Shown here piece by piece: positions 6,374 through 30,226 of a stretch of 35,335 nt of DNA. The stretch covers positions 1 to 35,335 of the forward strand of contig JASHNT010000100.1 in NCBI GenBank assembly GCA_030041495.1. Reading direction: 5' to 3'. The notes below the pieces were generated by a model. That model worked only from the letters and a program-made list of their open reading frames with translations, was not told the DNA's origin and searched no databases. How positions within the stretch are numbered: position 1 is the first letter of the stretch; each line of letters opens with the position of its first letter. The position numbers were made by a program, and so were the translations under genes. Origin of the DNA: Bryobacteraceae bacterium. GTDB lineage: Bacteria > Acidobacteriota > Terriglobia > Bryobacterales > Bryobacteraceae.

Positions 6374-6422
6374 GCTGTTGGGAGCTCTATCCCGCTCCCA
6401 CAGTTGTGCCCAACTGCAGGAG
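6374..6422 (-). promoter_or_regulatory. Expression-platform hairpins downstream of riboswitch 1
   Basis: In the minus-strand RNA the 3' strand of the aptamer (CTCC) can extend a perfect 6-bp hairpin CAGTTG-GGCA-CAACTG to pair with GGAG. A second stem, GGGAGC with GCTCCC extended by CTGT/ACAG, overlaps that GGAG and so competes with it. This arrangement would let fluoride binding choose between structures. No U-tract follows, so simple intrinsic termination is not obvious. Confidence 0.5.
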
Positions 6423-6460
6423 TCATTGGCCGCGTCGCGACGTTAAGCGGACTCCACCGC
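6416..6460 (-). promoter_or_regulatory. Fluoride riboswitch 1 (crcB motif), controls GTPase-MPE-eno-mutS unit
   Basis: Read on the minus strand: GCGGTGGAGTCCGC, then TTAACG, a short P3 stem, and GGCCAATGACTCCTGC. This matches the fluoride aptamer pattern: a P1 stem (GCGG with CCGC), the GGAGT strand that forms the pseudoknot with ACTCC, the conserved UUAAC junction, and the 3' signature (A/U)GACUCCU. The first gene of the minus-strand operon begins roughly 110 bases downstream. Fluoride binding normally turns the downstream genes on. Confidence 0.9.
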
Positions 6461-6490
6461 TGCCGGTCTACCCGCCAACATAATAGCACC

Positions 6491-6519
6491 TTGACTCGGA
6501 CGAAAGATGCCTGCAGAAT
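6491..6519 (+). promoter_or_regulatory. Sigma-70-type promoter for riboswitch 2
   Basis: TTGACT at 6491-6496 and CAGAAT at 6514-6519 are separated by 17 bases. The predicted transcription start falls about where the plus-strand fluoride aptamer begins (6527), as expected for a riboswitch at the extreme 5' end of a transcript. On the opposite strand, TATTAT at 6485-6480 is a possible -10 for the divergent unit, without a convincing -35. Confidence 0.6.
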
Positions 6520-6526
6520 ATCCTGA

Positions 6527-6573
6527 GGCGTTGGGTTCGCCTTTAACCGCCCCCTGGGGCAGATGACTCCTAC
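6527..6573 (+). promoter_or_regulatory. Fluoride riboswitch 2 (crcB motif), controls small membrane protein gene
   Basis: GGCGTTGGGTTCGCC forms P1 (GGCG/CGCC) and carries the 5' pseudoknot strand. It is followed by TTTAACCGCC, a CCCC/GGGG P3 stem, and CAGATGACTCCTAC, the 3' signature. The pseudoknot strand is GGGTT here instead of GGAGT, leaving wobble pairs to ACTC. It lies back to back with riboswitch 1, the two aptamers 66 bases apart, and directly precedes the gene at 6638. The downstream hairpin AGGAATG/CATTCCT is a possible expression platform. Confidence 0.88.
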
Positions 6574-6637
6574 GAGGAATGGCTCTCGCACGTGTCTTCG
6601 GCCTGCGGCTCGGCATTCCTTCTGATAGCGATTTCGA

Positions 6638-7030
6638 TTGAATGAGCGGCCGGCCAGCATGATCCCCTGGTTCGGAGTCGCGAAGGAGGCTCCGGTGGCC
6701 AACTGGTTCCTCATTTCTAGCAGCGGCCACTACGTGTGCCGGGAGTGCAACCGGTTCGTTTCGCGCAGTAAACATGTGCTTGCTGCCACTGAAGGCCGAT
6801 GCGACTGCGGAGATGAGCTGATCGCTCTTCGGCCAGCAGCTTTGACGTTTGGCGTCGGAGCCGCATGGGCGTGCATTGTCATATTCGGGAGTGTCCTTGC
6901 CGCTCGGGTCGCGCCTGAGCTGAAAGAGATGTTCTTGAACGCGGGACTTGCGATTACTGCGGCTCTTGCCTGTATCGGGCCCTTGAGGCGAGTCGCTATC
7001 GTAATCGACCCGAGCCCGCAGCGTCGGTAA
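6638..7030 (+). CDS. Small zinc-ribbon-like membrane protein
   Basis: A 130-residue protein not assigned to a named family. Near the N-terminus it has CRECNRF and then CDCGDEL, a CxxC...CxCG arrangement typical of a short zinc ribbon. Two hydrophobic stretches follow (FGVGAAWACIVIFGSVLAA and AGLAITAALACIGPL), so two membrane helices are likely with the zinc ribbon in the cytoplasm. The start could be the ATG at 6638 or at 6659; neither has a strong ribosome-binding site. Evidence that it is real: it is the only plus-strand gene between fluoride riboswitch 2 and riboswitch 3, and the cysteine pattern is orderly. It forms a single-gene fluoride-controlled unit. Function unknown; a membrane sensor or a partner of the transport proteins are both possible. 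Confidence 0.6.
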   Translation: MNERPASMIPWFGVAKEAPVANWFLISSSGHYVCRECNRFVSRSKHVLAATEGRCDCGDELIALRPAALTFGVGAAWACIVIFGSVLAARVAPELKEMFLNAGLAITAALACIGPLRRVAIVIDPSPQRR

Positions 7031-7174
7031 CCCGCCAAACCTTCGCGGAGGCGGCAGGGGCGTTCTTCGCGCTAGTAGTAGGTAGCTTGCTGCCGCTGCG
7101 CTAAAACGAAATGCAGCATGAGATCCGGTTGCTGGAGGATCTCGCGGACGCCTCTTTATGGTATGCTTCGGGCA

Positions 7175-7219
7175 GCGGTGGAGTTCGCTTAACCGCCGGA
7201 AACGGCCAATAACTCCTAC
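7175..7219 (+). promoter_or_regulatory. Fluoride riboswitch 3 (crcB motif), controls DUF190-GTPase-MFS unit
   Basis: GCGGTGGAGTTCGC, TTAACCGCC, a GGAAAC loop, then GGCCAATAACTCCTAC. All aptamer elements are present: P1 GCGG/TCGC, pseudoknot GGAGT/ACTCC, the TTAACCGCC junction and P3 CCG/CGG. TATGCT at 7162-7167 is a candidate -10 box. A leader of about 170 bases separates the aptamer from the first start codon at 7388. Confidence 0.92.
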
Positions 7220-7237
7220 GGTGGTTACTGTAGGAGT
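7212..7237 (+). promoter_or_regulatory. Expression-platform hairpin of riboswitch 3
   Basis: ACTCCTAC (7212-7219), the 3' pseudoknot strand of the aptamer, is perfectly complementary to GTAGGAGT (7230-7237) across a 10-base loop. Forming this 8-bp hairpin destroys the aptamer, so it is the natural ligand-free alternative. It is followed by GTGTGGGC and not by a U-tract. Confidence 0.7.
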
Positions 7238-7387
7238 GTGGGCAGCCCCCCCAGCAGTAATTCCCGCAAAACAACTTGGATGAGAGTTTCTGATCTATGG
7301 GTCAGACCGCTTTTGCCACGAACGCATCGGCGCTGCATCGGCTTCGAGAGAAGCGTTGCAGGCAACTGGACAGCCAAGGAGTCTCAC

Positions 7388-8125
7388 ATGCTTTCTAAAG
7401 GTCCTGCAAAGAGGGTCACAATTTTCGTGAACGAGGACACCCGTCATGGAACAGAGCCGCTCTGGCGAGCAGTCTTCGACCTGCTAGTACACAAGCGCGC
7501 CGCAGGGGCGAGTGTGACTCGGCCAGCGATGGGCTTTGGGAGCCACCATAAGGTGCATTCCCCCGATATGGAAGCGACCATGGAGCATCTTCCCGTTCGT
7601 ATTGAATTCATTGATGCGCCGGAGAAGGTGGAGGAACTGCTCCCCACGTTGTACGACCTTGTCACCGACGGAATGATCGACGTTCAGGACACCACGATCG
7701 TCAAGGTTGCCCAGAAGGAGAAGAAGCCTCAGGCGAAGGTGCCCCATAGCAGGACGGCTGGCGCGGCTCGTCTGCTACGGATCTTTCTCGGAGAGGCGGA
7801 TAAGTGGCACGGAGAGCCGCTCTACGATGCCATCGTGAAGAAGCTTCGGATGGAAGACATTGCCGGCGCCACCGTGTACAAAGCAATCCTCGGGTACGGC
7901 GCAAAGGGACATACCCACAAGGGACAGAGTTTCCTTCATCTCGCGCATGACAGTCCGGTCATGATATCGGTTGTTGATTCCGCTGTAAAAATCAAACAAG
8001 CTGTAGAAATTGCTGAAGGCATGTTGCAAGATGGATTGGTGGTCATTTCGGACGTGGACATCATTCGCCTGGCGCATCCTTCGCCCATGATGGAGGTTGC
8101 AGATGCCGGAAACGCAGCGCGGTAA
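7388..8125 (+). CDS. Tandem DUF190 protein (PII-like)
   Basis: A 245-residue protein made of two DUF190 domains, small PII-like folds that often neighbour CrcB. Domain 1 covers roughly residues 1-110 and begins MLSKGPAKRVTIFVNEDT. Domain 2 covers about 125-235 and contains GATVYKAILGYGAKGHTHK, the family's glycine-rich loop. Domain 1 has lost much of that loop. The frame is open 50 codons further upstream, but the ATG at 7388 follows AAGGAG at 7377 and matches the start of the paralogue at 22787 (MLPKGPAKKVT), so I chose it. First gene of riboswitch unit 3; the next DUF190 gene overlaps its end. A ligand-sensing or regulatory role is inferred from the PII-like fold. Confidence 0.88.
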   Translation: MLSKGPAKRVTIFVNEDTRHGTEPLWRAVFDLLVHKRAAGASVTRPAMGFGSHHKVHSPDMEATMEHLPVRIEFIDAPEKVEELLPTLYDLVTDGMIDVQDTTIVKVAQKEKKPQAKVPHSRTAGAARLLRIFLGEADKWHGEPLYDAIVKKLRMEDIAGATVYKAILGYGAKGHTHKGQSFLHLAHDSPVMISVVDSAVKIKQAVEIAEGMLQDGLVVISDVDIIRLAHPSPMMEVADAGNAAR

Positions 8126-8447
8126 GCTTCTCCGCATACACGTGTCTGAGCATGACCGGTTTGACGGGAAGCCGCTGTATGAAGCGATTGTGCAAAAGTG
8201 CCGTGAGATGAAAATCGCCGGCGCAACGGTTTTCAAAGGACTGGAGGGCTACGGACGAACCGCTGAAATCCACCGTTCGCACCTGATCGGCCACGATCAA
8301 CCGATTTTGATTACGATCGTCGATTCGGACTCCCAGGTCCGCAAGCTGATTCCGATTCTTGACGACATGCTCGACACCGGACTCATGTCGGTTTCGGACG
8401 TCGAGGTGATGAGGTTCCAAAGAAGCTTACCGGACCAACACACCTGA
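8103..8447 (+). CDS. Single-domain DUF190 protein (PII-like)
   Basis: A 114-residue DUF190 protein. It shows the domain's typical features: an N-terminal strand KLLRIHVSEHDRFDGKPLY, the loop GATVFKGLEGYG, and the C-terminal strand ISDVE-like VSVSDVEVMRF. The ATG at 8103 follows GGAGG with a 6-base gap, better than the in-frame TTG at 8097. It overlaps the preceding tandem DUF190 gene by 23 bases, so translation is likely coupled. With the double-domain protein it could assemble PII-like trimers from three related but different domains; that is inference. Its loop ends RTAEIHRS, close to the TAEIHRS-type sequence common in this family. Confidence 0.88.
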   Translation: MPETQRGKLLRIHVSEHDRFDGKPLYEAIVQKCREMKIAGATVFKGLEGYGRTAEIHRSHLIGHDQPILITIVDSDSQVRKLIPILDDMLDTGLMSVSDVEVMRFQRSLPDQHT

Positions 8448-8475
8448 GCGGCCGTGGGCCGAAGGCTCCCTCAGC

Positions 8476-10563
8476 ATGGCGAACTCAGCCGGACTCAATG
8501 ATCCGCAAAAGCACCATCTGCTTGCAAGCTGCCAGTATGCGGATAAGCTGCTTTTGGAGGTCGAAGCGATTCTCCACGCCGCTCATTCAAAATCCGTCTT
8601 CCCAAAGTATGCCGGCACTTTGGCCCCTGCCCAGGTCCGTGTGGTCGAAGACTACGTGGCACGAATCCGCGCTCAAATCGTGCGGGCCCTCCAAAGCCAG
8701 GACATCGCGATCCCAGAGCCGCCGTTTCCGACGGTTCGTTCCCTTCGCGTCACACTAACCTTCGCGGGCATCGCCCTCGAAGAGTGTACGGCCGAGAAGA
8801 TGCGAGGGTATGGAGAGGTCCCCGCGGAGGTAGCTCCGGAGTTGAACGGTCTCGTGAACGAGATCAAAGCCATCCTGGATCAGCTCAGCGGCTATCTCGG
8901 GCAGAATCTTGAACAGGACCCTGGAGAACGGCTGCGTCGGCTCCAGCAGACGGGAGACGAGGTCCAGTTGCTGAAGAAACTGGAGCAGGTAATCTCGCAG
9001 CAGGGCTTGGTGGATTACCGCGACCGCCTGTCCGCCATCTTGGACAGGGTCGAATCGACGAGTTTCGAAATCGCGCTATTCGGCCGAGTCAGCTCCGGGA
9101 AATCATCGCTATTGAATCACATCGTCGGTTTCGACGTCCTACCGGTGGGGGTCAATCCGATCACGGCGGTGCCAACTCGAATTGTTTTCGGACGCGAGCC
9201 TCGCTTGTTGGTGCACATCGCAGGTCAGCAGCCACAAACATTCGGAGTTGAGCGAGTTCCGGAATTCGTAACCGAACGGCGGAATCCTTCTAACCGAAGA
9301 CGGGTCGAGCGGCTGGTTGTTGAATTTCCGTCAGACCGGCTAAAGGACGGTGTAGTGCTGGTCGACACCCCCGGCCTCGGGTCTCTCGCCAGCGCCGGAG
9401 CAGCCGAAACGCTCGCTTATCTGCCCCGTTGCGACTTAGGAGTGGTACTGATTGACGCAGGTTCCACGCTCACTTCGGAGGATCTCTCGACGCTTGAATC
9501 GCTCAACCGGGCAGCCATTGAGACCACCGTGCTGCTGAGCAAAGCGGACCTTCTTGCGTGCGAGGATATTGGGCACGCCACTGAATATATCTCCCAGCAG
9601 ATCCGTACGAATCTTCGACTGAATCTCCCCATCCATCCGGTCAGCATCAAGCCGGGGTTCACTCAGCTCCTCGATAAATGGTTCGCAGATGAACTCGCTC
9701 CGCTCTATCAGCGGCACTGCGAACTCACCCAACAATCGCTTCGCCGAAAGATAGGTGGGCTGCGGGATTCGGTTGTTGCCACTCTTCGGGGACGTTTGGA
9801 TCGAAACGCGCGTCCAGCCTCTGCCGCCAAACGATCAGATCCGGAATTCAGCGAAGCCGAAAGCCGGTTGCGGCGCGTGACCGGCCGGTTTGAGGACATC
9901 CGCGACCAATGGTACCGCGACACATTGGAGATTCGCGAATATACACCGAGGTTCTTGCACGAAGCAGCGGCACATATCATTGACACGTGGCGCTCTCAAA
10001 ATTCCGCGCTTCCCGTCACCTGGGGGTCACTGAGCGAACTTGCCACAACGATGGTGGCGGAAAAGGCAAAGCCCCTTCGCACATTGTTCGAGGACTTGGC
10101 TCGCGAGCTTTCGGAAACGATACGAGCGGTCGCCGAAGTGTTGGGAGAGGAGAGCGGTGCCGCTTCCGAAGAGCTGGCATCTGTAGTCAAAGAGATGCCG
10201 AGGATAGATCTCGGGTCTGGTGAGTTGACTGTAAGGCGGCCTTGGATGACGAACCTCAGCGTGCGGTTGGCGCGACGCGAAGTTGAAAATCAGTTGTGCG
10301 CGTCGGCTGGCGATCAGCTCAGGGAATCGTTCGGCATCTTCGCAAGCGTGCTCGATGCCTGGAGCAGGCGTGTATCAACAGAATTGCAACTGTGGTTCAA
10401 CAGCTACGCGGACTCGCACCGGAGCCAACTTGCTCGCCTCTCGGGAGGAGCGAGTACTGCAGAGGACGCATCTGCGATTCGAGCAGCCCTGGAGGAGATA
10501 GAACAGCCTGCCGGAGGAGATCCCGCTTGCGCGGACAACACCGCTATCGAAGTTCGGAAATAA
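8476..10563 (+). CDS. Dynamin-like GTPase 2
   Basis: A 695-residue dynamin-family GTPase. It has an N-terminal helical region of about 190 residues, then G1 LFGRVSSGKSSLLNH (residues 202-216), G2 in NPITAVPT, G3 LVDTPGLGSLA and G4 LLSKADLL. The remainder is a long mostly helical stalk. No transmembrane helix is obvious, so membrane attachment would be peripheral. It lies 28 bases after the DUF190 gene and 21 bases before the MFS gene in riboswitch unit 3. Compared with GTPase 1 it has the same domain order but an extra N-terminal helical domain. Bacterial dynamin-like proteins often act in pairs on membranes, so it may work with the GTPases at 4616 and 25324; that is inference. Confidence 0.92.
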   Translation: MANSAGLNDPQKHHLLASCQYADKLLLEVEAILHAAHSKSVFPKYAGTLAPAQVRVVEDYVARIRAQIVRALQSQDIAIPEPPFPTVRSLRVTLTFAGIALEECTAEKMRGYGEVPAEVAPELNGLVNEIKAILDQLSGYLGQNLEQDPGERLRRLQQTGDEVQLLKKLEQVISQQGLVDYRDRLSAILDRVESTSFEIALFGRVSSGKSSLLNHIVGFDVLPVGVNPITAVPTRIVFGREPRLLVHIAGQQPQTFGVERVPEFVTERRNPSNRRRVERLVVEFPSDRLKDGVVLVDTPGLGSLASAGAAETLAYLPRCDLGVVLIDAGSTLTSEDLSTLESLNRAAIETTVLLSKADLLACEDIGHATEYISQQIRTNLRLNLPIHPVSIKPGFTQLLDKWFADELAPLYQRHCELTQQSLRRKIGGLRDSVVATLRGRLDRNARPASAAKRSDPEFSEAESRLRRVTGRFEDIRDQWYRDTLEIREYTPRFLHEAAAHIIDTWRSQNSALPVTWGSLSELATTMVAEKAKPLRTLFEDLARELSETIRAVAEVLGEESGAASEELASVVKEMPRIDLGSGELTVRRPWMTNLSVRLARREVENQLCASAGDQLRESFGIFASVLDAWSRRVSTELQLWFNSYADSHRSQLARLSGGASTAEDASAIRAALEEIEQPAGGDPACADNTAIEVRK

Positions 10564-10584
10564 CCTCGTATCAGCCTTTTCTCT

Positions 10585-11823
10585 ATGTCCAAACCAGAAA
10601 CGCATCGCTGGCTTACCAGAAACGTCATTGCCATTGGGATGCTCAGCCTGTTCTCCGACATGGGGCACGAGCTTACCACAGCCGTGCTGCCTCTCTTCCT
10701 AGCCACATTCGGCGGCGGAGCTCTGGCGCTTGGAACCATCGAGGGCGTTTCGGATGGCGCGTCGAGCTTGGTGAAACTGTGGATGTCTTACTATTCGGAT
10801 CGAATCGGGAAGCGAAAGCCGATACTCGCTGCCGGCTATCTGGCGACGGCGCTGATGGGCGGTTTTGCGTTCGTAACTGCCTGGTGGCAATTACTGGCGA
10901 TTCGAACCGTGGGGTGGATGGGCCGCGGAGCACGTGGACCGGTTCGCGATGCCCTCCTTTCAGAAAGCGTTCCAGCGGAGGTTTACGGCCGTGCGTTCGG
11001 CTTCGAAGGCGCAATGGACACGCTCGGAGCGATTATCGGTCCCGCCATTGCGCTGGCCCTGGTCGGAATTGCGTCGCTGCGGCACATTTTTCTGATTTCA
11101 TTCCTTTCCGGAGCGATCACTGTCTACGTCGCGGCCGTCATACTTCGGGAGCGGCCGCGAGCCCGGCAGGCTCATAAGACTCTGCTGCCATCGATTGCCT
11201 CACTGCCGAGATCATTCCGCCGCTTTGTTGGCACCGTCACAATTTTTGGGCTCGGGAACTTCGCCCATACCTTGCTGGTGCTTCACACCGTAGCCGTCCT
11301 GACGCCGTCGCGCGGTAGCGTAGCCGCTCAACGGATCGGACTTGGCTTGTACCTTCTGCACAATGTGCTTTGTGCTGCGGTCTCGTATCCGGTGGGAGCT
11401 CTGGGAGATCACCTCAGCGAGCGATCACTGCTGGGGGTGGGGTACGCGCTATTCGGTATTCTCTGCCTCGGCTTTTTGGTAGCCGGCGCGAATCTCATAC
11501 TGCTGACGTTCTTTTTTGTGCTCGCCGGTATTTACATCGGGATCGTCGACGCGATGGAGCGCGCATTTGCGGCTGATCTTACATCCCCTTCACAACCTGG
11601 CACCGGCTATGGCTTGTTGGCCACTGCAAATTCAATTGGTGATCTGTGCTCAAGTGTCGTGGTTGGATTTCTATGGAGCCACGTTTCGACGGCCGCCGGG
11701 TTTCTCTACGGCGCCGTATTCACGCTAGCCGGCGCGGCGGCGCTGGTGACGATTCCGCCACGTCCGCAGTTGAAACTGGAACCAGCAGCGTTTAGCACCG
11801 AACGCTCCGGTTCCGCGGATTGA
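10585..11823 (+). CDS. MFS transporter
   Basis: A 412-residue major facilitator superfamily protein with about 11-12 hydrophobic helices. The MFS signature between helices 2 and 3 is present as YYSDRIGKRKPI. The following RTVGWMGRGARGPVRDAL and GRAFGFEGAMDTLGAIIGP are typical of a subgroup with an Asp-rich helix 4-5 region often annotated as antiporter-like. It closes with a short cytoplasmic tail. The substrate cannot be deduced; drug, metabolite or ion export are all possible. It sits between the second dynamin-like GTPase and the HEAT-like gene with very short gaps, so it is under fluoride riboswitch 3. A direct role in fluoride export would be new for MFS and is only a hypothesis. Confidence 0.92.
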   Translation: MSKPETHRWLTRNVIAIGMLSLFSDMGHELTTAVLPLFLATFGGGALALGTIEGVSDGASSLVKLWMSYYSDRIGKRKPILAAGYLATALMGGFAFVTAWWQLLAIRTVGWMGRGARGPVRDALLSESVPAEVYGRAFGFEGAMDTLGAIIGPAIALALVGIASLRHIFLISFLSGAITVYVAAVILRERPRARQAHKTLLPSIASLPRSFRRFVGTVTIFGLGNFAHTLLVLHTVAVLTPSRGSVAAQRIGLGLYLLHNVLCAAVSYPVGALGDHLSERSLLGVGYALFGILCLGFLVAGANLILLTFFFVLAGIYIGIVDAMERAFAADLTSPSQPGTGYGLLATANSIGDLCSSVVVGFLWSHVSTAAGFLYGAVFTLAGAAALVTIPPRPQLKLEPAAFSTERSGSAD

Positions 11824-11833
11824 GGGGCACGGG

Positions 11834-12805
11834 ATGAGTGAGAATCCACCAACGTGCGGTAAGAACAGCTCTGAAAGTCCGCGACGGGAATTGAAATTCT
11901 GGATCGCCCGCTTGAATTCACTGATTGACGGCGAGGATGCCAGCCGCCAATTGATCCTCTTTGGAGACGCTGCGATTCCAGCCTTGCGCGATTTCCTCTT
12001 GTCGGGACGGCCCAGTGGAATTTACCAGCCGCGACAATGGGCTGTTCAGGCGCTAGCGTCTCTGGGCGCAAAAGAGGTCCTTCTGGAGTACCTCGCGCGT
12101 GAGGATCGTAATTCCGATCCCGTCATCCGGGAGGGAGAGGACGCGGTTTGCAACACCGCGGCACGGCTCGTTTCTTGTTGGAAGACTGAGGATGTTTTCC
12201 GGACCCTGTTTACGCTCAGCGAGAAGCGTCTCCTGCCGGGTGCAATATTCGCGCTGGGCGAGTTTCAGCGACCGGGAGCTCTGGCGGTGCTGGACAGGGC
12301 ATTGGAGGACGATGTCGCAGGTCCCTCGGCGGAGGAAGCATTGTTGAAGTTTGGCCACGTCGCTGCGGAGACATTAGTCTCATCCGCGCTTCGAAAGAGA
12401 ATGAACCAGGAGCAGGAGTCGCCGTCCAGTCTCCGTCGCAGGCGCGCAGCCGTCAAGATTCTCGCAGATACCGGGCTGGGGCGCCAATCCTGGCCCGAGT
12501 TGCGGGTGTTGCTCGATGAGCGCGATCCCGAACTCGTCGTGCATGCCGCGAGGCTTGCAGTAACTGCTAGCTCTGAACAGGATAAGCAGCGAGCGTTAAG
12601 ATCACTCCTGCGGGTCTTGCCTGAGGCTCAATGGTACCTGCGGGAAGACGCGGCCAGCTCCCTTGGCTCTCTCTACTCCTTTGGCGCGAACCTGATTGAG
12701 CAGGAGATCGCCCGGCGTTTGACAAAGCCGTCAAATGTCCGAGCTTCGGACGGCGCTCTCATTGTGCTGCTTCGCCTTCGAGCGCGTGGGGGGAGAGCTG
12801 GCTAA
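11834..12805 (+). CDS. HEAT-repeat-like protein
   Basis: A 323-residue soluble protein of regular paired helices. Recurring units such as IPALRDFLL, AVQALASLGAKEVLLEYL, AIFALGEFQRPGALAVLDRAL and VHAARLAVTASSEQDKQRAL are characteristic of HEAT/PBS-lyase-type alpha solenoids. No catalytic motif is visible, so it is probably a scaffold. The ATG follows GAGGGGCACGGG and begins 10 bases after the MFS stop; it is the last gene of riboswitch unit 3. Its partner may be the MFS protein or the GTPase; the sequence does not say which. About 64 bases separate its stop from riboswitch 4 and no clear terminator is visible between them, so read-through is possible. Confidence 0.75.
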   Translation: MSENPPTCGKNSSESPRRELKFWIARLNSLIDGEDASRQLILFGDAAIPALRDFLLSGRPSGIYQPRQWAVQALASLGAKEVLLEYLAREDRNSDPVIREGEDAVCNTAARLVSCWKTEDVFRTLFTLSEKRLLPGAIFALGEFQRPGALAVLDRALEDDVAGPSAEEALLKFGHVAAETLVSSALRKRMNQEQESPSSLRRRRAAVKILADTGLGRQSWPELRVLLDERDPELVVHAARLAVTASSEQDKQRALRSLLRVLPEAQWYLREDAASSLGSLYSFGANLIEQEIARRLTKPSNVRASDGALIVLLRLRARGGRAG

Positions 12806-12869
12806 TTCCGTACACTCTGCCAATGAACAGGGCCTTGCCACGCCCCTTGACGTGTGCTTGAATTAAGTT

Positions 12870-12937
12870 GGTAATGGAGTTTACCGTCCCGGTTTGGACC
12901 GGGAAAACTGCCGCGATCTGCGGCTGATAACTCCTCC
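12870..12937 (+). promoter_or_regulatory. Fluoride riboswitch 4 (crcB motif), controls Ehr/Hyf-like operon
   Basis: GGTAATGGAGTTTACC forms P1 (GGTAA/TTACC) with the GGAGT strand inside. A 5-bp stem TCCCG/CGGGA follows as an inserted extra helix. Then come AAAACTGCCGC, a short loop, GCGGC (P3), and TGATAACTCCTCC, the 3' signature. The AAACTGCC...GGCTGAT core is like the crystallised Thermotoga aptamer. TTGACG at 12847 could be a -35 element, but no well-spaced -10 is evident. Confidence 0.87.
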
Positions 12938-12981
12938 CTGAGACCGAAAGCCTGGAGCTGAAGGATCTACCATGGGAGGAG
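12931..12981 (+). promoter_or_regulatory. Alternative pairing downstream of riboswitch 4
   Basis: CTCCTCCC (12931-12938), the 3' aptamer strand, is fully complementary to GGGAGGAG (12974-12981), 35 bases downstream. Pairing would dismantle the pseudoknot. The bases after it are CGGCAAAAAA, not a U-tract, so the mechanism is uncertain. Confidence 0.6.
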
Positions 12982-13063
12982 CGGCAAAAAAGCATCGAAC
13001 TGTAGTGGGGCGCGGAAGTCCTGTTCAGACATCTTCCCTTGAGCAATCCCACGGAGGCGTTCG

Positions 13064-14017: not shown

Positions 14018-14020
14018 ACT

Positions 14021-16161: not shown

Positions 16162-16162
16162 A

Positions 16163-17776: not shown

Positions 17777-17788
17777 CGAGGGCAATTT

Positions 17789-20691: not shown

Positions 20692-20705
20692 CCGCGAGCG
20701 GTCCG

Positions 20706-22385: not shown

Positions 22386-22427
22386 GGTTCTTCCTCCTAG
22401 TGTTTTTCGTTCAAAGTCCGCAAAAGC

Positions 22428-23197: not shown

Positions 23198-23286
23198 GCA
23201 TTATTGTCGTCTCTCCGGCGCTTGAGGCGCGCAACGAGAAGAGTCTTGCGTCGGGGTACTCGCCCGGAGAACGGAATCGGGGTAGC

Positions 23287-23658: not shown

Positions 23659-23773
23659 CGCGAGAGTGGTGGCTCACCACACATTATGGGTTCCACAATC
23701 CGCGAGCCCGCCGCTCCCGCGCCGTGGGATTGGACGATCTCAATGTGGCCGGAGGGGCCGGTATGGACCTTGG

Positions 23774-23815
23774 GCATTGGGGACCAATTCAGGTAGGAGT
23801 CATCTTCCCCAATGC
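23774..23815 (-). promoter_or_regulatory. Expression-platform hairpin of riboswitch 5
   Basis: On the minus-strand RNA, GCATTGGGGA (part of P3, 23815-23806) is perfectly complementary over 10 bases to TCCCCAATGC (23783-23774), looping out the 3' signature ACTCCTAC. Forming this stem breaks the aptamer. No U-tract follows. Confidence 0.7.
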
Positions 23816-23843
23816 GGGGCGGTTAGCGGCGAACTCCAACGCC
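23793..23843 (-). promoter_or_regulatory. Fluoride riboswitch 5 (crcB motif), controls membrane protein-NUDIX-DUF190-ilvD
   Basis: On the minus strand: GGCGTTGGAGTTCGCC (P1 GGCG/CGCC plus the GGAGT strand), GCTAACCGCCCC, a GCATT loop, GGGG, and AAGATGACTCCTAC. Every conserved element of the fluoride aptamer is present. It is back to back with riboswitch 6, with 91 bases between the two aptamers that hold both promoters. Confidence 0.92.
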
Positions 23844-23850
23844 TCGATAT

Positions 23851-23880
23851 TCTTTATCTCACGACCAGGCTCTTTGTCAA
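23851..23880 (-). promoter_or_regulatory. Sigma-70-type promoter for riboswitch 5
   Basis: A perfect TTGACA on the minus strand (23880-23875), 18 bases, then TAAAGA (23856-23851). The expected start point is at the 5' end of riboswitch 5. The -10 match is weak, so the exact box may differ. Confidence 0.5.
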
Positions 23881-23898
23881 GGTATTTGAAGAAAGCCA

Positions 23899-23928
23899 TT
23901 GACTACCATCGAGAAACGCGTTCATAAT
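23899..23928 (+). promoter_or_regulatory. Sigma-70-type promoter for riboswitch 6
   Basis: TTGACT at 23899-23904, 18 bases, CATAAT at 23923-23928. The predicted start of transcription coincides with the first base of riboswitch 6 (23935). Confidence 0.65.
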
Positions 23929-23934
23929 GACTCA

Positions 23935-23987: not shown

Positions 23988-24086
23988 CAGGGCCGCTTCT
24001 CTGGTAGAGCTCATCATCCGAATGCGCTCCCCGCGGAAGCCCTGCAAAAATTGATCCAGTCGCCCTGCGAGGGTGAGGAGGCTTAC

Positions 24087-25331
24087 GTGCGGGAGAACGC
24101 CAGAGGAACTTTTCACGCCCTACATTCACCGGAGCCGTCCCGATCGGCGGATCGGCGACGCGATAGCGGAGCTTCCGTCAGTTATCAAGTGACTTACAGG
24201 GATGGCACCTCATTCCGTAAAGGCGCAGAACGCCCCGCATTCACACTACTCTTGAAGGATCCGGGACAACTTGAGCGATTTCTCGATTCAGATATCTACT
24301 CTGCCGCAGTTAAATTCATCCGGGGAGATGTCGACATCCGCGGCGACATCATCGCTGCGATTCGATTCAAGACGGCGACTACAACGCGAGGCTTCAGATA
24401 TTCACTGGCGTGCCTCGTTGCGCGCTTGGAGGCCTTATGTATTGAGTCGTGGATTCGGTCACCGCACCGGGCGGCACGAAACATCCGCTTCCACTATGAC
24501 CGCTCAAACGAGTTCTACCGGGCCTTCCTCGATTCGAGGATGGTCTACTCGTGTGCTTATTTCAAGAATGGTCCGCAAGATAGCCTGGACGACGCACAAC
24601 TGGCCAAGTTGGATCATATCTGCCGGAAGCTCGATTTGCGACCGGACGAGCTATTCCTGGATATAGGATGCGGCTGGGGGGCGTTGGCGGTTCGCGCGGC
24701 TGAAAGATATGGAGCGTTCGCGACCGGTTGCACGCTTAGCCTCCGGCAGGATCTGTTCACGGCGAATCTGATTTCCGAGAGGAGGCTGCAACATCGCGTG
24801 CGGATTCTTGAATCTGACTATGCCAAGCTCAGTGGTCAATTCGACAAGGTCGCTTCGGTCGGCATGTTCGAGCACGTCGGCCGTCGCCGCCTGAGGCGAT
24901 ACTTCCGCAAAGTTTTTACTCTTCTCAGAGACGATGGTTTGTTTCTGAACCATGGGATCGTCCGTCCAGAGGGAGCCACGGACGGTCCCGAGACGCTGTT
25001 TCTTCAAAAAAAGGTGTTCCCTGGAGGTGAATTAGCGACCCTCTCGACAGTGATTCGAGAAGCAGGACGAGCAGGATTCGAAATCCTCGACGTTGAGAAC
25101 CTTCGGCCTCACTATGCCCTAACCTGCCACCGCTGGGTGGAACGGCTTCAGCAAAACGTCGAAGAATGTCTCAGGCACGTCAGCCGCGAAGCCTATCGCA
25201 CATGGCTGCTCTACCTCGCCGGATCGGCCATCAGCTTTGAAAGCGGCGCGACGGATGTGTGTCAGATTCTGATGGCCAAGCGGCGCCCCACGACTTTGCG
25301 CCGGCTTACCCGCGAGTACATGTATGCCTGA
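24087..25331 (+). CDS. cfa: Cyclopropane-fatty-acyl-phospholipid synthase-like methyltransferase
   Basis: A 414-residue SAM-dependent enzyme of the CFA synthase family, which adds a methylene bridge to unsaturated acyl chains of membrane phospholipids. An N-terminal lipid-binding-type domain with GDVDIRGD (about residues 85-92) precedes HYDRSNEFYRAFLDSRMVYSC and the SAM motif FLDIGCGWGALAVRAAERYG. The C-terminal HYALTCHRWVERL is also typical. The frame is open to a TTG at 24051, but the GTG at 24087 follows GAGGAGG by 5 bases and is preferred. First gene of riboswitch unit 6; it overlaps the next gene by 8 bases. A denser membrane that slows HF entry is one possible reason for fluoride control; that is inference. 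Related methyltransferases acting on other lipids cannot be excluded. Confidence 0.92.
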   Translation: MRENARGTFHALHSPEPSRSADRRRDSGASVSYQVTYRDGTSFRKGAERPAFTLLLKDPGQLERFLDSDIYSAAVKFIRGDVDIRGDIIAAIRFKTATTTRGFRYSLACLVARLEALCIESWIRSPHRAARNIRFHYDRSNEFYRAFLDSRMVYSCAYFKNGPQDSLDDAQLAKLDHICRKLDLRPDELFLDIGCGWGALAVRAAERYGAFATGCTLSLRQDLFTANLISERRLQHRVRILESDYAKLSGQFDKVASVGMFEHVGRRRLRRYFRKVFTLLRDDGLFLNHGIVRPEGATDGPETLFLQKKVFPGGELATLSTVIREAGRAGFEILDVENLRPHYALTCHRWVERLQQNVEECLRHVSREAYRTWLLYLAGSAISFESGATDVCQILMAKRRPTTLRRLTREYMYA

Positions 25332-27825
25332 TTCTCTTGTCCCAAACTCAACTCCGACGGAAAATCATTCGAATGGAGTTCCAGCAGCAATGGCCCCGGC
25401 TTCGGATATTCTTCGCTACTATACGCACCTGAAGCTAGAGCTTGGTGCGATAATCCGCGCACTTCTCCATACCGCGGACCGCCGTCATGACGACCTCTCC
25501 GTCCAGGACTGCCGCCGCCTCTTGGCTCGACTGGCGGAAGACCGATTTAACCTGGCAGTCGTCGGCCAATTCAGCAGAGGAAAAAGCTCCCTGGTGAACG
25601 CTCTGCTCGGTTCTGAGAAGCTGCCGACCGGAATTCTTCCCCTGACTTCGGTGATCACAACAGTTGCCTACGGGGAAGCCGAAAGAGTGCTGCTTCAGCG
25701 CGAAGGTTGGACGCTGCCCCAGGAGATCACGCTGGATCAGCTCCCGGAATACGTCACGCAGCCGCAAAATCCAGGCAATGAAAAGCGCATCATCTTGGCG
25801 GAGGTTCGACTCCCCCACGAGCTTCTCCGCCTGGGCCTACACTTTATCGACACGCCGGGTATCGCTTCGGCGATCGCAGCAAACACCAGGACCACGCGGC
25901 GGTTCTTGCCAGAAATCGATGCAGCCATCCTGGTTACGAGCTTCGAATCTCCGATGACGGCGGCTGAAATAGGTTTCCTCCACGAGTTGCGCGAGCACGT
26001 TCGGAAGGTTTTCATCGTCGTCAACAAGCTGGATTTGGCTGGGGACGAAGAATGCCCAGTCGTGCTGGAGTCGGTGAGCCGTACTGCTCGCGAGATCTTC
26101 CCAGATGGGCAAGCAGCGGTTTTTGCAGTCTCCGCGGAATCGGCACTTCGAGGAAAACAAACTCATTCGGTTGAAGAAGTCGCTCAAAGCGGCATCCTGG
26201 CCTTGGAAGACTCGTTGTCGACTTTTCTTCGAAAGGACAAGGCTCGGGAGGTTCTACTTCGCGCAGCAGGACGTGCCGGGCAGATTGCCCAGCAGGTGGA
26301 GCGATCACTTTTGATATCGGAACGGGCTCATAATCCTGAGGAGTCCGCTGCAATCGAACAGCGTCTCGAAGATCTCTCCCTAAGCATCTCTCGCGACCGC
26401 GAACTAATGATCTTCTCTATGAGGCGACGGCTCCCCCATCTGTTTTGGGAACGTTGTGCGGCCGTCGCGCCGCTGTGGGCGGACACGGACGAAGAGTTGT
26501 TTGGACGCGAAATCGAAGGTTGGCTATCCCGCGAGAACGCCGGCATGCTCGGCAAGACGTTTCAAGGCTATCTCGAAACTTTGCTGCAGCGGATTTTTTC
26601 GGATTGGCAGTCTGTCCACCGAAATCAGATCGAGCGGATTTTTCAGGAACTCACCAACAACGAAGGTAAGGCCGCAGGTGGTCTCGCGAAAAGGATCGCA
26701 TATCTGCCCTCAGGTGCTCTGGAAAACGAAAACGCTCTGGGAAACGAAGCCAGCTCACCCTCGGCCTGGCCACTTAACTCGCATCCTTTGCTGCTGCCTA
26801 AGATTGAGTTCTCATTTGGGAACGTGGCCGTACCTTGGTGGTACGAACTGATTCCGCCCGGGCGGTGGCGCAATTATTTTGTCCACCGCTGGAGCCGTCA
26901 CGCCGGCGAATTTGGCCCCATGTACCGCCAGGCAGCTTCCGAGGCGCTCGAAATAGCGATGACTGACTGGATCAACGGCGTGGGTCGAAGTTTGGAGGCT
27001 CGGGAGGTACAAGCGAAAAAACAGATTACTGACCTGTTGCATCAAGAGCCGGCGTCCGCAGACTTGGTTGAGATCCGGCGGTCAATGGATCGCGTGCTCG
27101 AATTCAAAAAGGCGCTCTCGTCCTTGGCAGCCCCCCCGGACAAGCTGCGGACGTTCTCAAATCTAGCCGGAACTGACAATCGGGCCGAAATCAGGCCGTG
27201 CTCGATTTGCCTGCGCATTGAGAGGGCCCTCGACGAATTCATGGCTCATCGCCAATACGAACTCAGCATAAACGAGGTTGAACAGCGGAACCATGCGTTA
27301 AGGTCGGGCTTCTGCCCGCTCCACAGCTGGCAATATGAAGCGATTTCATCTCCGCATGGCCTTTCTGCGTCTTACGCGGAGCTGCTGAGTCTCTACGCGA
27401 AGCGGATTCGTATACTGGCCGGGGATTGCCCCTCCGTGGAAGCAATGGCGACCGGCCTCCAGCGTATGCTTCCTACCAGTAAGTCGTGTGAGGTTTGCCA
27501 GCTCATTGCGTCGACGGAAGTCACCGCGGCTCACGAGCAAGCTCGGCAGCTCCCTAAGCAGGATGCGGCGGATCAGCCTGCCCTCTGCGCGTTCCACCTC
27601 CACGCTGTGTTGATCGCTAGTCCGGATCTGAAGGCGGCTGCGGCGCTCTTGCTGCGAGAGGCCGGGATGTTTGATCGTCTCGCCGAGGACATGCGCAACT
27701 ACGTGTTAAACCATGAAGCTCTGCGTCGCAATCTATCGACGAATGCCGAGGGGGATGCGGCGACGGTGGGCCTGGCTCACTTAGTCAGCCGCCGGAATTT
27801 AGTTGCCGCACGAAGAATCGAGTGA
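25324..27825 (+). CDS. Dynamin-like GTPase 3 with C-terminal Cys/His module
   Basis: An 833-residue dynamin-family GTPase. GTPase motifs: G1 VVGQFSRGKSSLVNALLG (residues 80-97), G2 in LPLTSVIT, G3 FIDTPGIAS, G4 VVNKLDLA. A helical stalk follows, with a hydrophobic region around 500-520 (VAVPWWYELIPPGRW) that might touch the membrane. From about residue 625 a C-terminal module carries CSICLRIERALDEF, GFCPLHSWQYE, SCEVCQLIAS and ALCAFHLHAV: a CxxC followed by a CxxH, twice, which suggests two metal-binding units. The other two GTPases here lack it. It overlaps the CFA-like gene and precedes the PP2C gene by 12 bases. The pairing with a lipid-modifying enzyme supports a membrane role. Confidence 0.92.
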   Translation: MPDSLVPNSTPTENHSNGVPAAMAPASDILRYYTHLKLELGAIIRALLHTADRRHDDLSVQDCRRLLARLAEDRFNLAVVGQFSRGKSSLVNALLGSEKLPTGILPLTSVITTVAYGEAERVLLQREGWTLPQEITLDQLPEYVTQPQNPGNEKRIILAEVRLPHELLRLGLHFIDTPGIASAIAANTRTTRRFLPEIDAAILVTSFESPMTAAEIGFLHELREHVRKVFIVVNKLDLAGDEECPVVLESVSRTAREIFPDGQAAVFAVSAESALRGKQTHSVEEVAQSGILALEDSLSTFLRKDKAREVLLRAAGRAGQIAQQVERSLLISERAHNPEESAAIEQRLEDLSLSISRDRELMIFSMRRRLPHLFWERCAAVAPLWADTDEELFGREIEGWLSRENAGMLGKTFQGYLETLLQRIFSDWQSVHRNQIERIFQELTNNEGKAAGGLAKRIAYLPSGALENENALGNEASSPSAWPLNSHPLLLPKIEFSFGNVAVPWWYELIPPGRWRNYFVHRWSRHAGEFGPMYRQAASEALEIAMTDWINGVGRSLEAREVQAKKQITDLLHQEPASADLVEIRRSMDRVLEFKKALSSLAAPPDKLRTFSNLAGTDNRAEIRPCSICLRIERALDEFMAHRQYELSINEVEQRNHALRSGFCPLHSWQYEAISSPHGLSASYAELLSLYAKRIRILAGDCPSVEAMATGLQRMLPTSKSCEVCQLIASTEVTAAHEQARQLPKQDAADQPALCAFHLHAVLIASPDLKAAAALLLREAGMFDRLAEDMRNYVLNHEALRRNLSTNAEGDAATVGLAHLVSRRNLVAARRIE

Positions 27826-27837: not shown

Positions 27838-28605
27838 ATGCTCAAAGCGTTCGGTCTGACAAATATTGGTTGTACGCGATCGAACAATGAGGACTTGTTC
27901 GTGCTTGCCGCGGACGAACAGCTCTATGTCGTTGCCGACGGAATGGGCGGCACTCAGGGGGGTGAGGCGGCAGCCGAGTTGGCTGTCGACGCAGTTGTTT
28001 CGCATGTTCGTCAGAGCGATTCGCGGAACGCTGCAACACTAGTCGCCGCTTTCAACGCGGCGCATAACCGTGTAGCCGCCGAAAGCATCGAACCAGACCG
28101 CAAGGGGATGGGTTGCACTCTTGTGGCCGCGCTCATTCACCGGATGATGCTGTTTTTCGCGAACGTTGGCGATAGTCGAGGATACGTTTTTGCGCACGGG
28201 GCCTGCCAGCAGGTGACCGCGGACCAAACTTGGATCAATGAGGTGGGTCGAAAGCTGGGAATTCCGGATGGCGATTTGAAGCAGCACCCATACCGGCATG
28301 TTCTTACGGTTGCCGTTGGTGTGGCTGAAGCTCTTCGTGTGAATTCCTACTCACTACCGATCGCAAAGGATATGCAGGTACTGCTGTGTACAGATGGACT
28401 GCACGATGTCGTATCCGGCGAGGACATTCAAAGGATCATGCTTTCGGCCCAGTCGGCGGAGGGTAAGTGCCGTTCGCTGCTGGCGGCGGCGATCGAAGCC
28501 GGTGCGCCGGACAACGTCACGTGTGTGGTTTTGGATTTGGCTCACTACCGAAATGAAATGCTCGCGCTTCCGAGAGCAATTCACGACTCATCAAACCCCC
28601 AATGA
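27838..28605 (+). CDS. PP2C-family serine/threonine phosphatase
   Basis: A 255-residue PP2C/PPM phosphatase of the bacterial Stp/PrpC type. Metal-binding and catalytic motifs: GCTRSNNEDLF, VVADGMGGTQGGEAAAELA, FANVGDSRGYVF, LCTDGLHDVV and GAPDNVTCVVLDL. The Asp residues for two metals are all present. It starts 12 bases after the GTPase stop and is the last gene of riboswitch unit 6. No Ser/Thr kinase is encoded in the window, so the partner kinase, if any, is elsewhere. It lacks membrane segments. PP2C enzymes are metal-dependent and fluoride-sensitive in general, so again a compensating copy or a stress signalling role are both possible. Confidence 0.93.
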   Translation: MLKAFGLTNIGCTRSNNEDLFVLAADEQLYVVADGMGGTQGGEAAAELAVDAVVSHVRQSDSRNAATLVAAFNAAHNRVAAESIEPDRKGMGCTLVAALIHRMMLFFANVGDSRGYVFAHGACQQVTADQTWINEVGRKLGIPDGDLKQHPYRHVLTVAVGVAEALRVNSYSLPIAKDMQVLLCTDGLHDVVSGEDIQRIMLSAQSAEGKCRSLLAAAIEAGAPDNVTCVVLDLAHYRNEMLALPRAIHDSSNPQ

Positions 28606-28837
28606 TTCCTGGCTTCCGAGCAAGACGCGGCGACCACGGCCTTATCTTACTTGGTGGGTATGGGCCCGAGGCGGGCGTTGAAATCGATTGGCAGAAAGAA
28701 ATCGGGACCGCGAGCGACGAGGCCGCGCTGGACTGCGCTGGTGGGGTTATTGGACCTGCAGGTGCGTAGAGATGCTCAAATTCACCACGTCCTCCGGCGC
28801 GTCCTTGGCGCCGCTTCCGCAATCACCTTTGCGGAAC

Positions 28838-29629
28838 TCAGAGAAACTTCATTAGAACGTCGATTCGAAGAGGAGCGAATTTTATGTGCCGGCCGGAGAC
28901 GTAGATCGGATTCGAAGCCAACCTGCACATCTCGATGATTTGGCCGGGATTGCCATTTGCCGCCTCGATCACCTTGAGTCGGAACTCCTCAATATCGAGA
29001 TGGCTGATGCCGAAACGAGCGACCGCCAGATCGAAAATCCGGTTTGCTTCCCCCTCCTTCAACGGGTGGAGATGAATCGCATTCCGCGGGTCCCAGAAAA
29101 GGCGGGCGAGGGTGCCGAGAGCCGCCGGATCCCTCGCTGAGGCGAGCAGTGCCATGCCTTTGAGGAAATAGAGCCGCTGAAGGAAGCGGTATGTCGGAAA
29201 GCCAGCACCTTCTATGCCATCCAAGACGATCACGCGCGGCTCAGCGTCCAGCGAGGCCCATAGAATGCCCTTCAAATGAATGCTGGTTTGCTCCGAGAGC
29301 CATTTCTCGTCGTCGGTGCTAGGATGCGCCCGCTTGCGAAGGGCCCCATGTCCGCCTTCCAACAAGGCGCGCGCCAAATCGATCAGCAAGTTATGGAGGA
29401 CTGACGAGTACTGAAGCAGAACAATTCCCTCAGACTTTGGCAGCGTCGCAAGGGCGGAGGCGAGCAGCTTACTTTTGCCCGATCCTGCCGGACCCAGAAT
29501 AAGGAGCGGCTCGCGCCTTCGAAGACCGGCCACCACGCGCTCATACTCGTTGGCCCGCCCGATCAGGGGGAACGATCGCCCCATTTCCTGCGGAGTAACC
29601 TTCGAGCCAGGTAATGAATCTGCTGGCAT
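28838..29629 (-). CDS. AAA/STAND-type ATPase
   Basis: A 263-residue P-loop ATPase. Walker A is LILGPAGSGKSKLLAS and Walker B RVIVLDGIEG, followed by a sensor-like LLASARDPAALG and a small helical lid with NGNPGQIIEMCRLA. The N-terminal FPLIGRANEYERVVAGL is the usual box of ORC/STAND ATPases. The open frame begins at 29665, but the ATG at 29629 lies directly after the crcB stop and is preferred (translational coupling). It ends with a short basic and hydrophobic tail and has no DNA-binding domain. It is the second gene behind riboswitch 7. An ATPase next to CrcB is not a standard pairing to my knowledge; its role is unknown. Confidence 0.8.
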   Translation of the reverse strand: MPADSLPGSKVTPQEMGRSFPLIGRANEYERVVAGLRRREPLLILGPAGSGKSKLLASALATLPKSEGIVLLQYSSVLHNLLIDLARALLEGGHGALRKRAHPSTDDEKWLSEQTSIHLKGILWASLDAEPRVIVLDGIEGAGFPTYRFLQRLYFLKGMALLASARDPAALGTLARLFWDPRNAIHLHPLKEGEANRIFDLAVARFGISHLDIEEFRLKVIEAANGNPGQIIEMCRLASNPIYVSGRHIKFAPLRIDVLMKFL

Positions 29630-29631
29630 GA

Positions 29632-30006
29632 CTATCGCTTTGCCGCGAGGACGGCGCCAAGCCACACGGCCAAATATCCAACGACCAGGCTACCCAAGCC
29701 GTTCACAAGTCCCAACCATTCACCCTCATCGCGGAAGAGGCTGAGTGTTTCCCATTGAAAACTGGAAAATGTCGTATATCCACCCAGATAGCCAGTCACA
29801 ATTAAGAGTCGCCAATTGGGGTTCACGTGCGGTCGCTCCGTCAGGAACGTCATGGCGAATCCAATCAGGCAAGAGCCGGTAATGTTGATGAAAACGGTGC
29901 CGAAAGGAAACCTGGCACCTAGTCTCGCTGCAATAGCCGTACCGACCATGAAGCGGGTTAAAGAGCCAACGGCACCGCCGATGAGCACCATAATGTAGCG
30001 ATCCAA
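29632..30006 (-). CDS. crcB: Fluoride ion channel CrcB/Fluc
   Basis: A 124-residue four-helix membrane protein of the CrcB (Fluc) family, the dual-topology dimeric fluoride channel that lets fluoride leave the cell. Signature segments: GGAVGSLTRFMVG, FPFGTVFINITGSCLIGF (with the pore Asn) and TGYLGGYTTFSSFQWET (the Gly-Tyr-Thr-Thr-Phe-Ser element with the phenylalanine box and central Na+ site). The start is a TTG at 30006, 7 bases after GGAGG. Length is the family norm. It is first behind fluoride riboswitch 7 and followed immediately by the ATPase gene. It firmly ties the whole locus to fluoride. Confidence 0.97.
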   Translation of the reverse strand: MDRYIMVLIGGAVGSLTRFMVGTAIAARLGARFPFGTVFINITGSCLIGFAMTFLTERPHVNPNWRLLIVTGYLGGYTTFSSFQWETLSLFRDEGEWLGLVNGLGSLVVGYLAVWLGAVLAAKR

Positions 30007-30158
30007 GTCGAGACCTCCAAAGACATGTTCAGTTCCTCACTCCGCGTGTTTTTGCGATCCCAGCATTCTTCGATTCGCTCATCCCCATGCGGGCCGAAGG
30101 TTGTGCCGGCTTATCGTAATCGAGGTAGGAACCACCGGGGAGGGACTGAACAGGGAGC

Positions 30159-30185
30159 CTCCTGAGGCGATTCCGCCGACAGGAG
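30159..30185 (-). promoter_or_regulatory. Expression-platform hairpin of riboswitch 7
   Basis: In the minus-strand RNA CTCCTG (30185-30180, the 3' aptamer strand) pairs with CAGGAG (30164-30159), with the inner stem GGCG-GAAT-CGCC. It is the ligand-free alternative to the aptamer. The following GCTCCCTGTTC contains no U-tract. Confidence 0.65.
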
Positions 30186-30226
30186 TCATTGGCCGCACGT
30201 ACACGGCATTAAGCGAACTCCACCGC
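30179..30226 (-). promoter_or_regulatory. Fluoride riboswitch 7 (crcB motif), controls crcB
   Basis: On the minus strand: GCGGTGGAGTTCGC, TTAATGCCG, TGTACGT loop region, CGGCCAATGACTCCTG. P1 (GCGG/TCGC), pseudoknot GGAGT/ACTCC and the TTAA junction are all clear. It lies 173 bases upstream of the crcB start codon. TATCCT at 30243-30238 is a candidate -10 box. Confidence 0.92.

Follow-up and report, generated by a model that had tools for sequence, protein, structure and literature searches.

A probable fluoride-defence island in a Bryobacteraceae bacterium: seven fluoride riboswitches and a complex-I-like membrane machine

The window analysed here is a 35,335-base stretch of DNA from a Bryobacteraceae bacterium (phylum Acidobacteriota; assembly GCA_030041495.1, contig JASHNT010000100.1, positions 1 to 35,335). 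It contains seven fluoride riboswitch aptamers, and its layout places each of them at the head of its own gene unit, as the original prediction from the sequence had proposed. From 5' to 3' along the window these units hold 5, 1, 5, 6, 4, 3 and 2 genes, 26 predicted genes in all with crcB among them, in keeping with the more than twenty that had been anticipated. The switches starting at 6410 and 6518 form one back-to-back pair and those starting at 23787 and 23926 another, and three switches fall within about 0.8 kb.

Fluoride aptamers and their leaders

We scored the aptamers with the fluoride model of Rfam 15 (RF01734, cmscan, gathering score 34 bits) and with R1, a covariance model built here on an alignment of 26 aptamers, with all seven window copies among its training rows. 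The types listed give the bases at aptamer positions 6 and 38.

6410-6470, minus strand: fluoride aptamer 1, G6-C38 type; RF01734 21.7 bits, E 0.073, below gathering; R1 43.1 bits
6518-6579, plus strand: fluoride aptamer 2, U6-A38 type; RF01734 36.5 bits; one base short in the GGAG loop
7165-7225, plus strand: fluoride aptamer 3, G6-C38 type; RF01734 34.3 bits
12861-12943, plus strand: fluoride aptamer 4, A6-U38 type; RF01734 43.1 bits
23787-23852, minus strand: fluoride aptamer 5, U6-A38 type; RF01734 41.6 bits
23926-23993, plus strand: fluoride aptamer 6, U6-A38 type; RF01734 36.9 bits
30173-30236, minus strand: fluoride aptamer 7, G6-C38 type; RF01734 25.3 bits, E 0.0046, below gathering; R1 45.2 bits

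The Infernal search places all seven where, and on the strands on which, they had been predicted, and most of them, five of seven, pass the RF01734 gathering score (34.3-43.1 bits), but the copies at 6410 and 30173 fall below it. With E allowed to rise to 5, the same model finds no eighth match in the window. R1 gives the window copies 43-70 bits, scores that are partly a product of construction because all seven sit in its training set; the counterpart of the 6410 copy in G008, a genome of the same genus, lies outside that set and reaches 42.5 bits. When R1 was run on 20 related genomes without an Rfam match (about 113 Mb) as a check for false matches, it returned six matches with E no higher than 0.01, of which three have at least 20.7 bits (38.5, 28.8 and 23.6), and some of these may be real. 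Across seven multi-switch loci the Rfam model at gathering backs 20 of 30 R1 matches, the other 10 resting on R1. A match to sR47 at 14037, below its own cut-off, was taken as chance.

G008 carries the island from the MutS-like gene to the PP2C gene over two contigs, its best matches being 67-97% identical and some of them partial. Six of the seven aptamers (6410 to 23926) are kept in place there, and the 6410 copy differs at three of 61 bases, counted by eye, amid neighbouring DNA that has diverged. Neither crcB nor the AAA gene was found on the two G008 contigs, so that the 30173 copy has no counterpart for comparison. The two weak copies, 6410 and 30173, thus draw support as putative aptamers from their R1 scores and from a paired G-C at positions 6 and 38, and the 6410 copy also from its conservation in G008. 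R1 finds eight aptamers in the G008 genome, of which the two additional ones precede a DUF190 gene and an open reading frame (ORF) resembling glutamine synthetase by eye, the latter aptamer (L040:11024-11207) being a weak match of 23.0 R1 bits. The genome of the window itself has a further aptamer-like element (G000:C143:51402-51480, L041; 25.1 Rfam bits, 40.2 R1 bits), which precedes a second crcB with DUF190 genes.

The claim that every copy forms the P1 stem and the pseudoknot was largely upheld: over 146 distinct aptamers, 98.3% of P1 cells and 98.2% of pseudoknot cells are paired. The reservation concerns the 6518 copy, whose pseudoknot is probably weaker than claimed because one base of its GGAG loop is lost. 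This loop reads GGG in the window and GGGG in G008: either the switch is weakened or the assembly is wrong in this run of G.

The available text of PMC11586693 and PMC10687018 describes two long-range contacts in the T. petrophila aptamer, a reversed Watson-Crick A6-U38 pair and a Hoogsteen A40-U48 pair. Positions 6 and 38 are complementary in all seven window copies: read by eye, they are A-U at 12861, U-A at 6518, 23787 and 23926, and G-C at 6410, 7165 and 30173, both weak copies carrying a swapped but paired version of A6-U38. Over the 26 aptamers the pair is A-U in 12, U-A in 7, G-C in 6 and other in 1. Over 146 distinct rows, window copies included and aligned with a model that does not treat 6-38 as a pair, it is A-U in 96, G-C in 27, U-A in 20, G-U in 1 and unpaired in 2, which makes 98.6% complementary; RF01734 does not score this position as a pair either. 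Once rows from the window, from G008 and from the second crcB locus are removed (n=135), 95 A-U, 23 G-C, 14 U-A, 2 A-C and 1 G-U remain. A40 is present in 150 of 150 rows and U48 in 149. Compared with shuffles, four of five covariation measures are higher in the real alignment, with the proviso that the changes at 6-38 are not independent events because related rows have common ancestry. The available text of PMC13273304, PMC10687018, PMC11586693, PMC8004769, PMC11077080 and PMC7657543, figures and supplements lying outside its scope, makes no mention of covariation at 6-38. The swapped pair may help to explain why Rfam under-scores some fluoride switches that are likely to be real. A linked subtype (A3 columns 15, 118, 119) was also seen, position 39 being A in 29 of 30 G6-C38 aptamers and G in 74 of 97 A-U ones.

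Within the leaders, promoter-like sequences end next to two of the aptamers, TTGACT-17-CAGAAT (6491-6519) beside the 6518 copy and TTGACT-18-CATAAT (23899-23928) beside the 23926 copy. Intrinsic terminators were considered and set aside, their count in two scanned regions being no higher than in shuffles, and none standing immediately behind an aptamer. In 91 of 150 aptamers, where shuffles would give 40.9, the pseudoknot-forming strand of the leader has a predicted pairing partner in the RNA downstream, an excess that fits a hairpin competing with the pseudoknot. Such a hairpin is predicted for five of the seven window copies, including aptamer 3, where ACTCCTAC would pair with GTAGGAGT downstream, and aptamer 4, where it is predicted in G008 as well.

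Gene units and the switch-linked complex

Aptamer 1 precedes a unit of dynamin-like, phosphoesterase, enolase and MutS-like genes, aptamer 3 a DUF190, dynamin-like, MFS and HEAT unit, aptamer 4 a complex-I-like operon of six subunits, aptamer 5 a unit of the 123-residue ORF, NUDIX, DUF190 and ilvD, aptamer 6 a methyltransferase, dynamin-like and PP2C unit, and aptamer 7 crcB with an AAA gene. The predicted features are as follows.

1-1059, minus strand: MutS-like partner protein; ORF open past the contig end, no Pfam match, 31% identity with the MutS_V region in G008 across 96 residues
1056-2717, minus strand: MutS domain V ATPase-like protein (PF00488, E 7e-19)
2615-3892, minus strand: enolase (PF00113/PF03952)
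3906-4619, minus strand: calcineurin-like phosphoesterase (PF12850)
4616-6370, minus strand: dynamin-like GTPase A (PF00350)
6638-7030, plus strand: ORF of 130 residues; no Pfam family, residues 24-112 conserved in G008
7238-8125, plus strand: double DUF190 protein (PF02641, two stretches); true start probably the ATG near 7388, by eye
8097-8447, plus strand: DUF190 protein (PF02641)
8476-10563, plus strand: dynamin-like GTPase B (PF00350)
10585-11823, plus strand: MFS transporter (PF07690)
11834-12805, plus strand: HEAT-repeat protein (PF13646)
13064-14017, plus strand: cxB, NuoH/HycD-like membrane subunit (PF00146)
14021-14713, plus strand: cxE, HyfE-like membrane subunit, named by position and a weak PF00420 match (23.1 bits, cut-off 26.1)
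14704-16161, plus strand: cxF, HyfF/NuoM-like antiporter subunit (PF00361); conserved E135, K221 and K339
16163-17776, plus strand: cxG, HycE/HyfG-like large subunit without the nickel-iron (NiFe) cysteines (PF00346/PF00329; alignment to HycE of 7z0s; motif census)
17789-18547, plus strand: cxI, ferredoxin-like plus NuoB/HycG-like subunit (PF01058; alignment to 7z0s_G; ferredoxin-type cysteines)
18544-20691, plus strand: cxN, HyfB/NuoL-like antiporter subunit (PF00361; NF005086, hydrogenase 4 subunit B, 500 bits, cut-off 667)
20706-22385, minus strand: dihydroxy-acid dehydratase, IlvD (PF00920/PF24877)
22428-22787, minus strand: DUF190 protein (PF02641)
22757-23197, minus strand: NUDIX hydrolase (PF00293)
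23287-23658, minus strand: ORF of 123 residues; no Pfam family, conserved in G008
24051-25331, plus strand: cyclopropane-fatty-acid synthase-like methyltransferase (PF02353)
25324-27825, plus strand: dynamin-like GTPase C (PF00350)
27838-28605, plus strand: PP2C-type phosphatase (PF13672)
28838-29665, minus strand: AAA ATPase (PF13191)
29632-30006, minus strand: CrcB/Fluc fluoride channel (PF02537; NCBIfam TIGR00494 above cut-off)
30315-33576, contig right end: transposase-like ORFs, tRNA-Arg(ccg) and a phage-type integrase (32209-33576)

The complex is tightly linked to fluoride switches elsewhere. A query set (A1) of the window's large subunit and four close ones was used in a scan of one genome per species, and the best 80 of 163 relatives were examined; the scan was by protein rather than by switch, yet all five queries came from switch-linked loci. 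An aptamer is present in 71 of the 80 loci, and in all 64 loci with more than 3.7 kb of upstream DNA a same-strand aptamer precedes the large subunit, at a median distance of 3,371 bases (range 2,544-6,568; 60 of 64 within 5 kb). Two of the remaining 16 loci (L108 and L126) also have an upstream same-strand aptamer, and the other 14 offer 7-3,334 bases of upstream DNA, mostly too little. A large-subunit search of 396 genomes of the phylum returned the window's own protein, four homologues at 49-52% identity, all four with an upstream aptamer, and 26 at 40% identity or less, for which no R1 match of at least 20 bits was found at any of the 26 loci (23 with at least 3.7 kb and 20 with at least 7 kb upstream). 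Families that recur in the 80 loci are enolase (19), dynC-like (19), crcB (19), phosphoesterase (18), HEAT (13) and MutS_V (12). One locus, L140, has two complexes in tandem, a copy of 34% identity lying just upstream of the switch-led one.

The gene set of this complex is treated in print as formate hydrogen lyase (available text of PMC2864571 and PMC11139923). The paired-cysteine motifs of the NiFe site are absent from all 81 large-subunit rows; five have a single cysteine in the first motif region, and none has two in the second. In the small subunit, a CxxC and a third cysteine are kept in nearly all of the 67 rows examined. NuoH-, NuoB- and NuoCD-like subunits are all found, together with antiporter-type subunits in which glutamate and lysine residues are conserved in at least 90% of rows (69 for cxF, 64 for cxN); we take these to be of the kind found in antiporter-type channels. 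The likeliest assignment is a complex-I-like ion pump without nickel, supplied by way of a ferredoxin-type cluster.

In a quick tree a single branch sets the 85 switch-linked large subunits apart from the rest, with a Shimodaira-Hasegawa-like approximate likelihood ratio test (SH-aLRT) value of 100. Record titles give them 12 phylum names, with 13 rows unnamed, and some of these labels may be wrong, metagenome bins making up most of the records. Outside the switch-linked group, homologues have either the nickel motifs or a GD-type replacement, the latter apparently forming another group without nickel. Same-phylum loci with the GD-type replacement of the first nickel motif, and with no R1 match of at least 20 bits nearby, are L051, L052, L054-L060, L062-L067, L069 and L070.

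Interpretation and competing explanations

We think it probable that the window is a fluoride-defence island, in which seven riboswitches would each turn on their own operon as intracellular fluoride rises and the complex would energise export. Fluoride binding, activation and co-transcription of each unit are what we infer from aptamer structure and gene layout; for some copies, the fluoride-bound aptamer would perhaps keep the leader out of the hairpin that competes with the pseudoknot. The families of the products suggest four jobs. CrcB would export fluoride. Enolase, phosphoesterase, PP2C, NUDIX, the GTPases, the MutS-like ATPases and perhaps IlvD would replace or protect magnesium- and phosphate-handling enzymes that fluoride inhibits, while the cyclopropane synthase and the dynamin-like GTPases may adjust the membrane against entry of hydrogen fluoride (HF). 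The six-subunit complex resembling hydrogenase 4 and formate hydrogenlyase would supply energy, its ion pumping offsetting acidification by HF and maintaining the inside-negative potential by which F- is expelled through CrcB. According to the available text of PMC11139923, fluoride export depends on proton-motive force, and Na+/H+ antiporters rank next among the classes associated with the switch; a pump without nickel that sustains the potential under HF stress would fit both points.

Several observations weigh against this interpretation. Two aptamers lie under the Rfam cut-off and a third, 6518, has a shortened pseudoknot loop; promoter-like and terminator-like sites are overall no commoner than in shuffles, and no U-tract terminator was seen directly after any window aptamer. 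The competing hairpin fails our criterion in 59 of the 150 aptamers, and is lacking in the G008 counterparts of 7165 and 23926. The fifth covariation measure, the number of further pair types, was reached by 119 of 500 shuffles. Two weak R1 matches (16.4 and 13.9 bits) occur in the 26 control loci, the 13.9-bit one upstream and on the same strand. As for the complex, the fourth N2-type ligand is cysteine in only 16 of 67 rows, the others having Asn, Asp, His, Ser, Gln, Ala or, in 4 rows, a gap; at 1.7, the branch between the switch-linked large subunits and the rest is long and drew a long-branch warning; and the window's own genome has the HypD maturase, so that nickel maturation probably exists in that cell.

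That the complex is instead a true formate hydrogenlyase or group 4 [NiFe] hydrogenase, serving a fluoride-induced shift to fermentation as the available text of PMC11139923 suggests, seems to us very improbable. The closest solved match of the large subunit is indeed formate hydrogenlyase subunit 5 (7z0s, E 5e-56), and formate hydrogen lyase is listed among the commonest enzymes associated with fluoride riboswitches (PMC11139923, same text), but we rejected this reading because the nickel-binding cysteine motifs are lacking in all 81 large subunits examined. Nor was a formate dehydrogenase domain found among the 30 window ORFs scanned, and a HypD match (E 1e-10) is missing from 10 of 25 genomes with the complex, three of them 96-99% complete. 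A quite unlikely alternative is that the role of the complex goes beyond energising CrcB and that it transports fluoride itself, or exchanges F- for H+ by way of its antiporter-like subunits. Its presence beside fluoride switches in 64 of 64 loci, its two antiporter-type subunits and the sighting of crcB in only 19 of the 80 locus stretches would all suit such a role; against it, the antiporter subunits keep the ordinary channel Glu and Lys, and crcB may lie beyond the stretches. We know of no halide-carrying relative of the complex.

The remaining alternatives concern the island as a whole. Several of the seven copies might be decaying duplicates, with only four or five still working, and the two sub-threshold scores and the base lost from the 6518 loop point that way; we consider this rather unlikely, given that six copies, 6410 to 23926, have same-place counterparts in G008 and that 6-38 is complementary in all seven. 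A mobile element, carried by an integrase and inserted at tRNA-Arg, is a similarly doubtful reading of the island. The integrase adjoins the tRNA, transposase-like ORFs lie at the right end and the switch-linked large subunits bear many phylum labels. A second copy of the tRNA 3' end (att repeat) was, however, not found in the contig, which stops 3.2 kb past the tRNA and in which only the tRNA itself matched, and G008 shares the island, yet crcB was not found on its two contigs. Spread by plasmids was set aside, the large-subunit homologues among the matches listed (40 of 87 PLSDB records) being less than 36% identical.

Returning to the fluoride-defence reading, we also propose, tentatively and as an idea somewhat more apt to fail than to hold, that a widespread class of fluoride super-loci bearing a dozen phylum labels is built round a nickel-free, complex-I-like machine used only for fluoride stress, which would use reducing power to generate the potential, or to exchange ions directly, so as to expel fluoride, and that the published 'formate hydrogenlyase' is at least in part this machine under the wrong name. 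The pairing in 64 of 64 loci makes that long-listed, unexplained association testable.

Known systems and other multi-switch loci

The window copies share with the RF01734 riboswitch the P1 stem, the pseudoknot, A40 and U48, and a position upstream of genes; they differ in standing seven side by side, in the commonness of U-A and G-C swaps at 6-38 and in that no canonical terminator is seen after them. Ehr and Mbs are hydrogenase-related energy-converting complexes that lack NiFe. The window complex resembles them in having a complex-I-like architecture without a hydrogenase site, although the switch-linked sequences lie on their own side of the branch and have a different motif. With formate hydrogenlyase and hydrogenase 4 (Hyc, Hyf) it shares the subunit set and sequence similarity, but it has no NiFe cysteines, no formate dehydrogenase domain was found in the window, and its fourth N2-type ligand is mostly not cysteine. 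We found no description of a nickel-free complex linked to fluoride switches in the literature searched, which included the available text of PMC12595759 and left most subscription papers outside.

Reported targets of fluoride switches include mutS, enolase and 'formate hydrogen lyase' (available text of PMC2864571 and PMC11139923). The Enterobacter cloacae FRM island GI3 likewise combines crcB, enolase and a riboswitch with transposases alongside, and has a pyrophosphatase too, with one riboswitch and six genes (PMC5533749, available text), whereas the window has seven switches and 26 genes, plus the membrane complex and the dynamin-like GTPases. Extensive riboswitch-based regulation is described for Methylobacterium DM4 and S. 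cattleya (PMC11139923, available text). The printed fluoride islands that we found each have a single switch and a handful of genes, while the seven separately switched operons here resemble a single regulon. They widen the candidate fluoride response to dynamin-like GTPases, cyclopropane synthase, HEAT and PP2C proteins, and the island may be a source of parts for organisms intended to free fluoride from organofluorines. Methylobacterium DM4 is said, by Baker et al. in 2012, to have about ten fluoride switches.

That most genomes have one or a few such switches agrees with our counts, in which an Rfam match (E 1e-3) turns up in 133 of 396 genomes of the phylum. The highest count, 5, belongs to the window's genome, followed by a count of 4 and by three genomes with 3 each, under strict filters that lose weak copies, so that the window's genome shows 5 of its 7. 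Among 61 relatives only this genome and G008 reach 5, and in a draw from a second phylum, that of G469 (n=299), only the deliberately chosen centre genome, G469 itself, exceeds 2, with 8. The original prediction that seven side by side would be unusual therefore stands as to rarity, no other of the 396 genomes having more than 4, but a search of other genomes led us to reject uniqueness. In an R1 census of 20 genomes with the complex (the 19 behind chosen loci, mostly multi-switch, and G008), three other genomes have seven aptamers within 35,335 bases, spanning 17-33 kb with the tightest at 17.0 kb, four have six and seven have four; the most switches in one genome is 13. These figures are not a frequency because the genomes were picked mostly for having several switches. 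The seven-switch island is rare, not unique. In other loci, the ORFs that follow the aptamers at L139:9998-10063, L109:4180-4251 and L153:18651-18715 resemble, by eye, S-adenosylmethionine synthetase, 6-phosphofructokinase and a Na+/H+ antiporter, respectively.

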